A program made the translations under genes and the position numbers. A stretch of DNA of 64,000 bases from Hyphomonas atlantica corrig. (lineage in GTDB: Bacteria; Pseudomonadota; Alphaproteobacteria; Caulobacterales; Hyphomonadaceae), in the NCBI RefSeq assembly GCF_000682715.1, contig NZ_AWFH01000001.1, positions 434,001 through 498,000 of the forward strand, written 5' to 3'. This document shows positions 5,671-8,548 of this stretch, piece after piece. How positions within the stretch are numbered: position 1 is the stretch's first letter; each line of letters begins with the position of its first letter. The notes under the pieces are model-generated. The model was given only the letters and a program-made list of their open reading frames with translations. It was not told where the DNA came from and did not search any database.

Positions 5671-5750
5671 CCCCGCGTCGCAGCGACTGACATAGATTAG
5701 TGCAGCCAAGAAAGTTCCTGATATGTTCTCGCATCAACAGGAGCAGGATC

Positions 5751-7001
5751 ATGGCGCGCCGTACCCTCATTCAGAAGCTGGAAATTCTCGCAGACGCGGC
5801 AAAGTACGACGCGTCATGCGCATCATCCGGATCAAGGAAACGAAACTCGGTTGGCACGAACGGGATTGGTTCAACAGAAGGCATGGGGATTTGCCACTCC
5901 TATGCCCCTGATGGTCGTTGCATATCACTGCTGAAAATTCTGCTGACGAATTTCTGCATCTTCGACTGCCGCTACTGCATCAATCGGTCGTCCTCGAACG
6001 TACAACGCGAGCGGTTTTCCGTTGAAGAAGTCGTCAAACTGACGCTCGACTTCTACAAACGCAACTATATTGAAGGGCTCTTTCTCTCCTCCGGGATTAT
6101 CCGTTCGCCGAATTACACAATGGAGCAATTGCTGGAGGTGGCCCGCAGCCTTCGCGAGGATCATGGCTTTCGCGGCTATATCCACTTGAAAACGATCGCC
6201 GAGGCAGATCCGGAACTGATCCGGCTGGCCGGCAAACATGCGGACCGATTGTCGGTGAATGTGGAGCTGCCATCCGAACAGGGACTGACGCACTACGCCC
6301 CGGAGAAAAGCGGACAGACCATTCGCAAGGCGATGGCGGATATCCGCTATGAGATTGATAACGTAAAGGACGCGAAAGCCAGCCGTATCCTGAAACGCGC
6401 AAAACCTCCGGCGTTTGCGCCCGGTGGACAATCCACACAAATGATTGTCGGCGCAGATGCCTCCAGTGACGCCGACATTCTCAACTCCTCCGCCCGGCTC
6501 TATGCGGGCTATGGCCTGAAGCGCGTCTATTATTCCGCCTACAGCCCGGTTCCAGACGCCAGCGCGGACCTGCCGCCCATCCGCCCTCCCCTGATCCGGG
6601 AACACCGGCTTTACCAGGCCGATTGGATGTTCCGCTTCTATGGGTTCACGACGGCGGAAATCACATCAGTTGCGGACAATGGCATGCTGGACCTCGACGT
6701 GGACCCGAAGCTGTCCTGGGCCCTGCGGAATCGCGGCCTGTTCCCGATGGATATCAACCGGGCGAGCTATAAGGAGTTGCTACGCATCCCGGGCCTGGGC
6801 CCAACCAGTGCCAAACGCATCGTCGCCGCGCGGCGCCACACCCGGCTGACATTGGATGATCTCGGCCGAATCGTTCGCAGCCTGAAAACTGTTCGCCCCT
6901 TCATTACGGCATCCGGATGGTCACCCGGAAAGCTGACAGATACGGCGGACCTGAAGCAGCGATTCCTTCCAGCGCCCAAGCAGCTGGACCTGTTCACATG
7001 A
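5751..7001 (+). CDS. Putative DNA modification/repair radical SAM protein
   Basis: 416 residues. The radical SAM cluster motif CxxxCxxC is at C69, C73 and C76 (CIFDCRYC). A helix-hairpin-helix DNA-binding motif lies near residues 335-372 (NRASYKELLRIPGLGPTSA), and the C-terminus ends QLDLF. This matches the family described as putative DNA modification/repair radical SAM protein (TIGR03916 type), whose reaction is not established as far as I know. Start has AGGAGCAGGATC upstream. Its stop overlaps the next start (ATGA at 6998-7001), so the pair is translationally coupled. Such proteins recur next to DUF4130/UdgX proteins, implying one pathway. Confidence 0.9.
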   Translation: MARRTLIQKLEILADAAKYDASCASSGSRKRNSVGTNGIGSTEGMGICHSYAPDGRCISLLKILLTNFCIFDCRYCINRSSSNVQRERFSVEEVVKLTLDFYKRNYIEGLFLSSGIIRSPNYTMEQLLEVARSLREDHGFRGYIHLKTIAEADPELIRLAGKHADRLSVNVELPSEQGLTHYAPEKSGQTIRKAMADIRYEIDNVKDAKASRILKRAKPPAFAPGGQSTQMIVGADASSDADILNSSARLYAGYGLKRVYYSAYSPVPDASADLPPIRPPLIREHRLYQADWMFRFYGFTTAEITSVADNGMLDLDVDPKLSWALRNRGLFPMDINRASYKELLRIPGLGPTSAKRIVAARRHTRLTLDDLGRIVRSLKTVRPFITASGWSPGKLTDTADLKQRFLPAPKQLDLFT

Positions 7002-8494
7002 TCGCCGCCGAGTTGGAACATGAAACGGATTTCGGAGGATGGCGACGACTCGCACGCGGCCTTCTAGCCGAAGCCATTGCTCCGGATGCGGTCGACTGGA
7101 AGATACAGGGCGCACCCAGCGATCTCTTGTCCGCTGCCACATTCCAACCATCCGCCGCCAAGCCGGCATCTCCGATGCGCGTTTCAAAGCGCTTCATAGA
7201 TTTGGCGCGCCGCACCATTTGTCATACCGACCCGCAGCGATTTGCCCGTCTCTATCACATTCTGTTCCGCCTGCAGGCGCGCACATTGCACATTGATCAG
7301 GTAACAGACGATGACATTCGCTGGCTCATGTCCTGCGACAAGGCGGTACGCCGGGATATCCACAAGACCCATGCCTTTGTTCGGTTCCGGGAGACGGGAA
7401 CCGATCCAGATGGTCGGGAGACCTTCGCGGCGTGGTTCGAGCCGACCCATCGCACGCTGGAGCTTAGCGCGCCCTTCTTCCAGCGCCGGTTTCCAAACAT
7501 GGACTGGATTATCGTCACGCCGGACCGAACCGCCTGTTGGGATGGGCGCTCACTACGCTTCAGCGAGGGTGGCCAGCGATCCGACGTTCCGCCAGATGAC
7601 GCCGTGGAGGACCAATGGCGCACCTATTTCCGCTCCATCTTCAATCCGGCGCGCTTGAAGATCAGTGCGATGACATCGGAAATGCCACGAAAGTACTGGA
7701 AGAATTTGCCGGAAGCGGATTTGATCCCCGAACTGATCGCGACGGCGCCGACCCGAGCCCGCTCCATGCAGGCTCAGCCGCTCCTAGCCCCCAATCCGCT
7801 GGCCACACATCTGGACCGCCAACGCGCCGCTCAAGCCGCCCCTGCCCCGACGCTGGAAACGTTCGCCGGAATCCGCTCGGCAATCTCTGCGTGCCAGCGG
7901 TGTCCGCTCTGCAAGGACGCATCTCAAAGCGTGTCGGGCGAAGGGCCTGAAGACGCACGATTGATGATCGTGGGAGAGCAACCTGGCGATCAGGAAGACA
8001 TTGCCGGACGCCCCTTGATGGGGCCTGCCGGACAATTGCTCGACACGATGCTGGCCGAAGCCGGTCTGGACAGGAGCGCGGCCTATGTCACCAATGCCGT
8101 CAAGCATTTCAAATTCACGCCGCGCGGCAAGCGACGCATGCACCAGCGGCCAAATGCCGGAGAAATCGATACGTGTCGCTGGTGGCTCGACCTGGAACGC
8201 CAGCAGGTTCAACCGGATCTGATCATCGCGCTTGGCGCAAGCGCTGCGCGAGGCGTGCTCGGTCACTCGGTCAGAATATCAGATGTGCGCGGAAAAATTC
8301 AGCCAGTCCCCGGCGGGGCATCCTTGCTCGTGACGGTCCATCCCGCCTATCTCCTCCGCCTGCCTGACGCGGACCGCGCCCTGACCGAACGCCAACATTT
8401 CGCGCAGGATCTACGAATGGCACGCTCATTTCTGGACGGCGCCGTGAAGGGAACGAATTGCAGGGAAGGAAATGGTGCCGCTAAGGTGACTTGA
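6998..8494 (+). CDS. DUF4130 - UdgX fusion: uracil-DNA-binding protein
   Basis: 498 residues in two domains. Residues about 1-255 match the DUF4130 (TIGR03915-type) DNA-metabolism domain. Residues about 285-480 are a UDG-superfamily domain of UdgX type: Cys-rich entry (C299, C302, C305), GEQPGDQED at 327-335, the UdgX R-loop KRRMH with H382, and HPAYLLR at 448-454. In characterised UdgX the R-loop histidine forms a covalent bond with the DNA after uracil release. The start overlaps the radical SAM stop by 4 bases. The last 22 bases lie antisense inside the tRNA-Thr gene, so the final residues are probably non-conserved. Confidence 0.9.
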   Translation: MIAAELEHETDFGGWRRLARGLLAEAIAPDAVDWKIQGAPSDLLSAATFQPSAAKPASPMRVSKRFIDLARRTICHTDPQRFARLYHILFRLQARTLHIDQVTDDDIRWLMSCDKAVRRDIHKTHAFVRFRETGTDPDGRETFAAWFEPTHRTLELSAPFFQRRFPNMDWIIVTPDRTACWDGRSLRFSEGGQRSDVPPDDAVEDQWRTYFRSIFNPARLKISAMTSEMPRKYWKNLPEADLIPELIATAPTRARSMQAQPLLAPNPLATHLDRQRAAQAAPAPTLETFAGIRSAISACQRCPLCKDASQSVSGEGPEDARLMIVGEQPGDQEDIAGRPLMGPAGQLLDTMLAEAGLDRSAAYVTNAVKHFKFTPRGKRRMHQRPNAGEIDTCRWWLDLERQQVQPDLIIALGASAARGVLGHSVRISDVRGKIQPVPGGASLLVTVHPAYLLRLPDADRALTERQHFAQDLRMARSFLDGAVKGTNCREGNGAAKVT

Positions 8495-8548
8495 ACACCT
8501 GACCCCCGCATTACGAATGCGATGCTCTACCAGCTGAGCTATAGCGGC
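8473..8548 (-). tRNA. tRNA-Thr (anticodon CGU)
   Basis: 76 bases including an encoded 3' CCA. The acceptor stem GCCGCTA pairs with TAGCGGC. The D arm is GCTC...GAGC, the anticodon stem TCGCA/TGCGG holds loop TTCGTAA (anticodon CGT, reads ACG), and the T arm is AGGTG-TTCAAGT-CACCT. It is transcribed in the same direction as the HemY gene 91 bases upstream. Its 3' end overlaps the end of the opposing UdgX reading frame by 22 bases. Confidence 0.97.

Follow-up and report, generated by a model that had tools for sequence, protein, structure and literature searches.

The present analysis concerns a 64,000-nucleotide stretch of Hyphomonas atlantica DNA (contig NZ_AWFH01000001.1, positions 434,001 to 498,000 of the forward strand; hereafter the window) and two overlapping genes in it, which encode a radical S-adenosylmethionine (SAM) protein and a fusion of a DUF4130 domain with a UdgX domain. 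We tentatively propose that these genes specify an SOS-induced and clamp-recruited module that would process DNA lesions at the replication fork and, in many lineages, would do so beside the ImuA-ImuB-DnaE2 mutasome. This proposal draws on the following features, all read from sequence: the pairing of the genes, a LexA-type box, the mutasome neighbourhood observed in some lineages, a clamp-type motif and the conserved residues of UdgX. The two genes are as follows.

5751-7001, + strand: radical SAM gene, 416 amino acids (TIGR03916 and Pfam profiles)
6998-8494, + strand: DUF4130-UdgX fusion gene, 498 amino acids, in ATGA overlap with the radical SAM stop

The radical SAM protein belongs to the NCBIfam family TIGR03916 (557.6 bits for a curated cut-off of 343.5), which is named 'putative DNA modification/repair radical SAM protein' and which we take to be the same family as COG4277. 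In the two proteins, the Pfam profiles Radical_SAM, HHH_3, DUF4130 and UDG all scored above their own cut-offs. The linkage of TIGR03916, TIGR03915 and TIGR03914 genes is already catalogued, and the window pair departs in nothing from the catalogued families. The start of the fusion gene lies inside the stop of the radical SAM gene, the shared bases being ATGA. An alternative upstream start at 6917, which would give 525 amino acids, is also open; we prefer 6998 because it fits the start of the domain and because the four-base overlap recurs in relatives (in frame in 32 of the 78 named relatives in which a DUF4130 gene follows). These named relatives are the best 80 of 587 radical SAM matches, and they are Alphaproteobacteria by name, except for L049 (named only as Pseudomonadota) and two Xanthomonas; the closest named genome among them is that of Henriciella pelagia, with a 76% identical radical SAM protein. 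An earlier note, made from the letters of the window, had described a radical SAM protein with C69, C73 and C76 and a helix-hairpin-helix, overlapping by four bases a DUF4130-UdgX fusion with a KRRMH motif and H382. The profiles and residue positions bear out this description, and its numbering of H382 holds with the start at 6998.

The pairing was surveyed in 299 genomes of the host's phylum, profile matches being counted above curated cut-offs. TIGR03916 occurred in 53 of the 299 genomes and TIGR03915 (DUF4130) in 56, and all 53 genomes with TIGR03916 also carried TIGR03915. In 51 of these 53 carriers the genes lie on the same strand, with fewer than 800 bases between the profile matches, and in the other two they are about 3 kb apart. 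Since the genes are shared and adjoining in the carriers, their pairing in the window is not due to chance. Similarly, DUF4130 follows the radical SAM gene in 78 of the 80 named loci, the contigs of the other two ending 114 and 688 bases past the gene. DUF4130 stands without the radical SAM gene in only three genomes; in one of these (G330) the contig extends only 1.2 kb upstream. Caulobacter vibrioides, a control genome, was matched by both TIGR03916 and TIGR03915. The co-occurrence of the families across genomes, which the earlier note had proposed to check, thus supports its view of a single pathway (53/53), and the conserved separation that it had set against that view was not seen.

The situation of UdgX is different. 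An above-cut-off UdgX directly follows DUF4130 in 41 of the 56 cases and none stands beside the other 15, while 14 of the 55 above-cut-off UdgX matches are not beside DUF4130; genome G324 counts in both remainders owing to a contig break, with DUF4130 at a contig end and a UdgX piece on another contig. Among the 78 named relatives UdgX is in the same frame as DUF4130 in 68, in a separate frame in one (L053) and absent from the examined stretch in nine. The radical SAM protein and DUF4130 are therefore the constant pair, and UdgX is optional. We rejected UdgX as a constant core because of the 15 DUF4130 matches without it (G324 included), and the data do not support the earlier note in its treatment of UdgX as a constant part.

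Upstream of the pair stands a candidate control element.

5714-5728, + strand: GTTCCTGATATGTTC, an alphaproteobacterial-type LexA (SOS) box that lies 22 bases ahead of the radical SAM start

According to the accessible text of PMC8565304, the LexA motif of Alphaproteobacteria is GTTC-N7-GTTC, and such a motif is what we found near the start of the radical SAM gene. Knowing that a single match in the window corresponds to chance expectation (mean 1.65), the evidence for the box lies in its position and its conservation: a box in either orientation occurs between -100 and +10 of the start in 74 of the 80 named loci, as compared with 17 of 6140 other sequence windows of the same loci. In the genome of H. 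atlantica itself, 18 of 94 matches were picked by eye for their AT-rich spacer, and of the 18 nearby open reading frames (ORFs) ten were scanned; four stretches had no ORF near the box. Seven of the ten match families of the DNA-repair type, mostly below curated cut-offs, namely recN, uvrA, imuA, rmuC, Pol IV-like, photolyase-like and PA0069-type radical SAM; of the other three, one is YifB and two had no match at 1e-8. The curated cut-off was reached only by YifB and PA0069, recN and uvrA being clipped at the stretch end. The PA0069 protein is a second radical SAM protein at a GTTC-N7-GTTC box (L156, 367-1530, - strand, own-genome contig C61). The accessible text of PMC8565304 also describes a COG1573-COG4277 two-gene operon under predicted SOS control in Bacteroidetes, and cites reports of such control in Verrucomicrobia and Alphaproteobacteria; the window pair has in common with this operon the predicted SOS control and, if our assumption about COG4277 is right, the families themselves. 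From these data, the gene pair is probably switched on by DNA damage through LexA.

The radical SAM protein also carries two elements that would bring it to DNA.

6981-6995, + strand: QLDLF, putative beta-sliding-clamp-binding motif, residues 411-415, at the C-terminal end of the radical SAM protein
6750-6839, + strand: helix-hairpin-helix DNA-binding motif, residues 334-363 (Pfam HHH_3 9e-8, residues 334-362; partial TIGR01259 match)

The protein ends in QLDLFT, with the motif at residues 411-415 of its 416 (confidence 54 for the last block of the model), and this motif matches the consensus of bacterial clamp clients, QL[S/D]LF or more generally QxxLF (accessible text of PMC12309361). We compared 130 radical SAM proteins, from loci scoring more than 150 bits (L001, L007, L127, L128, L129, L130 and L133 were left aside because they were duplicates, were truncated or lacked the gene; L131, L135, L136, L139 and L140 repeat a genome already included, and there may be further repeats). 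Within their last 22 residues, 110 of these proteins have the strict motif Q[LM]xL[FLI] and 17 a relaxed form, as compared with four strict motifs in the 50,892 other positions of the same proteins. Of the three rows with neither form, L132 ends in QMALW, L126 has QLSIF in its tail and L124 is a distant outgroup. Clamp-type tails occur outside Alphaproteobacteria, such as QLKLF in Fusobacterium and QLSLF in Pusillibacter. Hence, the radical SAM protein appears to dock on the replication clamp via its QLDLF tail; we found no prior description of a clamp motif in the TIGR03916 family in the open-access literature as far as its text was accessible.

The third line of evidence is the neighbourhood. 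The genes imuA, imuB, radical SAM, DUF4130 with UdgX, and dnaE2 follow each other in that order on the same strand in seven loci of erythrobacters and other Sphingomonadales (L043, L053, L055, L062, L068, L079 and L086), and partial versions of this order occur in L044, L059, L076 and L103. In L043 and L053, imuB abuts the radical SAM gene; in L055, L079 and L076 (at about 2.7-4.0 kb), the 1.1-1.3 kb that separates imuB from the radical SAM gene may include another gene of the cluster. The pair diverges from imuA in L105 and L106, and from imuB-dnaE2 in L012. DUF4130 can also lie divergent from imuA-imuB-dnaE2 without the radical SAM gene, with UdgX in L129 (2550-4115, - strand) and alone in L130 (2160-2840, - strand). 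At the scale of the survey, DnaE2 (NF004225 above cut-off) is present in 45 of 53 carriers and in 69 of 246 other genomes (p = 1e-14), and, outside the host's class, in 11 of 17 carriers and 32 of 196 others (p = 3e-5), kinship being ignored in both tests; dnaE2 lies within 2.5 kb of the pair in eight of the 53 carriers. Since the accessible text of PMC3765255 already placed DUF4130 in an SOS gene network, predicting it to be a mutagenesis-related enzyme and associating it with SplB-like radical SAM proteins and with uracil-DNA glycosylases, the link of the pair to mutagenesis is not new; the place of the pair between imuB and dnaE2 was not found in that text, figures aside. Together, the LexA-type boxes, the clamp motif and the mutasome neighbourhood lend indirect support to the DNA-related role that the earlier note had suggested.

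What the radical SAM protein may do to DNA can be approached through its cysteines and its fold.

5955-5978, + strand: radical SAM cluster motif C69xxxC73xxC76, kept in 130/130 rows
5817-5921, + strand: extra conserved C23, C48, H49 and C57, candidate second metal or Fe-S site (129/130 rows each)

The near-invariance of C23, C48 and C57, together with H49, suggests a second metal site or cluster. The predicted model, which is metal-free, has a mean predicted local distance difference test score (pLDDT) of 85, with block confidences of only 50-60 for residues 21-50, the stretch of the extra cysteines. The protein of L124 (a Gemmatirosa plasmid) is 35% identical and lacks C23, C48 and C57, a DUF4130 match and the clamp tail; judging from these sequence traits, it is a related but different family, and serves as the outgroup within the 130 rows. 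A further alignment (A3) was made of 43 of the 80 named loci and the window.

An unlikely alternative reading is that the radical SAM protein directly reverses a pyrimidine photoproduct or a similar lesion in the manner of spore photoproduct lyase (SplB), with DUF4130 binding the lesion and UdgX as a side tool. Such a reaction would suit a radical SAM fold joined to a DNA-binding motif, the LexA-type box upstream and the dispensability of UdgX; furthermore, SplB is a radical SAM enzyme acting on DNA, and the accessible text of PMC3765255 calls the DUF4130-associated enzymes 'SplB-like' and states, in a figure legend, that they 'might modify thymines'. However, the spore photoproduct lyase family was absent from the NCBIfam matches of the window protein at 1e-3, and other folds rank first: the 50 VIA structure rows shown are led by the barrels of lipoyl synthase, HydE and biotin synthase (Z 17.8-16.0, root-mean-square deviation (rmsd) 2.4-3.4 over 211-231 residues) and do not include the lyase, which does not exclude a family that is not listed. 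Unlike SplB, the window protein also has a clamp-type tail and a helix-hairpin-helix, and its extra conserved cysteines hint at a different chemistry.

The constancy of the pair opens a second, quite improbable alternative, in which the target modified by the radical SAM enzyme would be a protein instead of DNA, with DUF4130 or a replication protein as the likeliest candidate. Radical SAM maturases typically show a constant pairing with a small partner, and the one-to-one pairing in 53 of 53 carriers has that appearance, whereas the helix-hairpin-helix and the clamp-type motif are borne by the radical SAM protein itself and point to DNA.

The fusion protein comprises the following features.

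7016-7717, + strand: DUF4130 domain, residues 7-240 (TIGR03915, 196.3 bits; predicted structure, mean pLDDT 91.9)
7721-8419, + strand: UdgX domain, residues 242-474 (TIGR03914, 314.8 bits; 178.5 bits to 6iod)
7973-7987, + strand: UdgX motif A, GEQPG (E327, Q328), residues 326-330 (96/96 fused rows)
8129-8143, + strand: UdgX R-loop, KRRMH, residues 378-382, with the predicted covalent-trap histidine H382 (R380 and H382 in 96/96 fused rows)
8339-8359, + strand: UdgX motif B candidate, HPAYLLR, residues 448-454

For the fused UdgX, 98 rows were aligned and 96 counted (the window and 95 fused rows), H382 being missing from none of the 98; the seed rows of the profile that retrieved them had been selected by GE[QR]PG. 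As GEQPG, R380 and H382 are kept in all 96, the UdgX trap is under strong selection. Similarly to the UdgX of Mycobacterium smegmatis (structures 6ajo and 6iod), the window UdgX has GEQPG, an R-loop of the KRRxH type and an HP...LLR motif; it differs from it by its position behind DUF4130 in a single chain and by its motif B, which reads HPAYLLR instead of HPS(S/A)(L/V)(L/V)R, i.e., with H and R kept, S replaced by A, and S/A replaced by Y. The commonest residues of motif B in the fused rows are HPSYLLR.

UdgX bonds covalently to the abasic site, from its histidine to the C1' of the sugar (accessible text of PMC10359453). This bond, together with the fusion of UdgX to DUF4130 in 68 of the 78 named relatives, could mean that the radical SAM-DUF4130 pair frees DNA from UdgX-abasic-site crosslinks or from other DNA-protein crosslinks. 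We regard this as very unlikely: the 15 of 56 DUF4130 matches with no above-cut-off UdgX alongside (one of them at a contig end) imply that UdgX adducts are not the sole substrate, and the 14 of 55 UdgX matches away from DUF4130 also speak against it. The other option of the earlier note, that the pair installs a modified base read by UdgX, finds an echo in the NCBIfam name of TIGR03916 and is highly improbable, as the LexA-type boxes and the mutasome neighbourhood point to a damage response.

Regarding DUF4130, which is also matched by Pfam PF13566 (3.6e-36), its predicted structure had no Foldseek match at 1e-3. Its VIA list is led by rows of PAP phosphatase, RecJ and Cdc45, presumably all members of the DHH superfamily, from Z 7.6 downwards; RecJ has Z 7.3 and rmsd 3.7-3.8 over 178-181 residues, and the tool rates Z values of this range as common. 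The hhalign comparison of DUF4130 with RecJ- and AlaRS-type alignments returned a probability of 0.1, and a Pfam search run up to E = 10 returned, DUF4130 itself aside, no match below 0.011. The DHH catalytic motif was found neither in residues 1-251 of the fusion nor in the consensus of alignment A2 (the window and 54 of 72 usable relatives, six of the 78 having been dropped, five by a motif filter and L041 by an unknown letter). We rejected a RecJ-type nuclease, since the fold hint is weak and comes without profile support and without the DHH motif; the likeness of the predicted structure to the DHH/RecJ fold is a lead only.

Returning to the clamp-recruited, SOS-induced module that we favour, we propose that it would work as follows. 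The sliding clamp, via the QLDLF tail, and the helix-hairpin-helix would bring the radical SAM protein to DNA, where the 5'-deoxyadenosyl radical, perhaps with the second cluster, would serve to process a base that is damaged or has been misincorporated. The radical SAM barrel of the predicted model, with VIA Z of about 17 to lipoyl synthase and HydE, speaks for this scheme. DUF4130, the constant partner, probably holds the nucleic acid. Where present, UdgX would recognise and remove uracil and bond to the resulting abasic site through H382, and this bond may both anchor the complex at the site and shield it. The LexA control, the clamp binding, the second cluster, the reaction on a lesion and the anchor role are the parts of this scheme that we infer. 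A bolder version, to which we give a low probability, is that radical SAM-DUF4130 belongs, as yet unrecognised, to the working parts of the DnaE2 mutasome, namely as a clamp-tethered, two-cluster radical enzyme that chemically edits or repairs a fork-blocking base in the course of translesion synthesis, with UdgX as its covalent anchor at uracil sites.

Several observations weigh against the proposed module. With regard to LexA, the two Xanthomonas among the named relatives have no LexA-type box, and GTTC-N7-GTTC is not enriched across the genome of H. atlantica (94 matches, and 100 for the reversed control). With regard to the clamp, 20 of the 130 radical SAM tails differ from the strict motif. 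With regard to the mutasome, imuB was matched in only 10 of the 80 named loci (flanks of up to 4 kb); the dnaE2 gene of H. atlantica lies on another contig (C61); eight of the 53 carriers have no DnaE2 above cut-off, one of which (G188) has it in two pieces; and the association with DnaE2 is modest within the host's class (34 of 36 carriers and 37 of 50 others, p = 0.02, kinship ignored). Finally, in five of the seven same-strand clusters imuB is separated from the radical SAM gene by 0.5-1.3 kb, and in all seven the radical SAM gene is preceded by its own LexA-type box, so that a single transcript with imuB cannot be concluded.

It is worth comparing the proposed module with other SOS-linked systems. 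It would share LexA-type control with the ImuA-ImuB-DnaE2 mutasome, and in some lineages it lies in one cluster with the mutasome genes or diverges from them; unlike the mutasome, it includes no polymerase, and the eight carriers mentioned above lack an above-cut-off DnaE2. HMCES binds abasic sites covalently, and SRAP is a protein family different from UdgX. The SRAP/HMCES (YedK) abasic-site shield is likewise SOS-linked (accessible text of PMC3765255), whereas UdgX generates the abasic site itself, from uracil, and becomes attached to it by a histidine (accessible text of PMC10359453). To the catalogued TIGR03914, TIGR03915 and TIGR03916 families the present analysis adds the clamp-type motif, the extra cysteines, the division into constant and optional parts and the imuB-dnaE2 placement, none of which was found in the accessible text of the literature searched; nor was a reaction for the pair found there. 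A text search for the TIGR family names matched one paper, with a single mention of TIGR03914. Through the clamp motif, the LexA-type box and the imuB-dnaE2 placement, a 'putative DNA modification/repair protein' becomes the subject of concrete and testable hypotheses, and if these are true, radical chemistry on DNA belongs to bacterial damage tolerance outside spores.

Within the genus, the radical SAM gene was found in three of the 41 sampled genomes, that of the window included. Two non-carriers have a hydrolase gene at the same site, between an RNA 2',3'-cyclic phosphodiesterase gene and tRNA-Thr. Thus, the pair is patchy and the site swaps its content.

L196 2713-4296 and L197 2066-3649, - strand: replacement gene, by eye a relative of serine beta-lactamases/esterases, in two genus-mates without the pair
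8473-8548, - strand (window): tRNA-Thr(CGT), a locus boundary outside the mechanism, which shares bases with the 3' end of the fusion gene

In the window, the final residues of the DUF4130-UdgX fusion are encoded by the tRNA-Thr(CGT) sequence, read on the opposite strand. Plasmids carry the pair (158 of 72,556 records). Matches were present in 10 of 50,697 phage records, and one viral contig (L120) has a radical SAM match, with no DUF4130 relative found on it. L122, labelled Acinetobacter phage MD-2021a, has the pair among housekeeping genes, glyQ and glyS included, and, judging from this gene content, is probably host chromosome rather than phage. A phage system was rejected on these grounds.

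Lastly, the radical SAM and DUF4130 genes of some sphingomonad-type loci have between them, or close to either one, a gene that looks hemerythrin-like by eye.

L036 5291-5797, L049 5277-5768 and L080 5317-5799: hemerythrin-like gene, with matches also in L003, L114, L120, L127 and L128

This neighbour might protect the Fe-S enzyme from oxygen.

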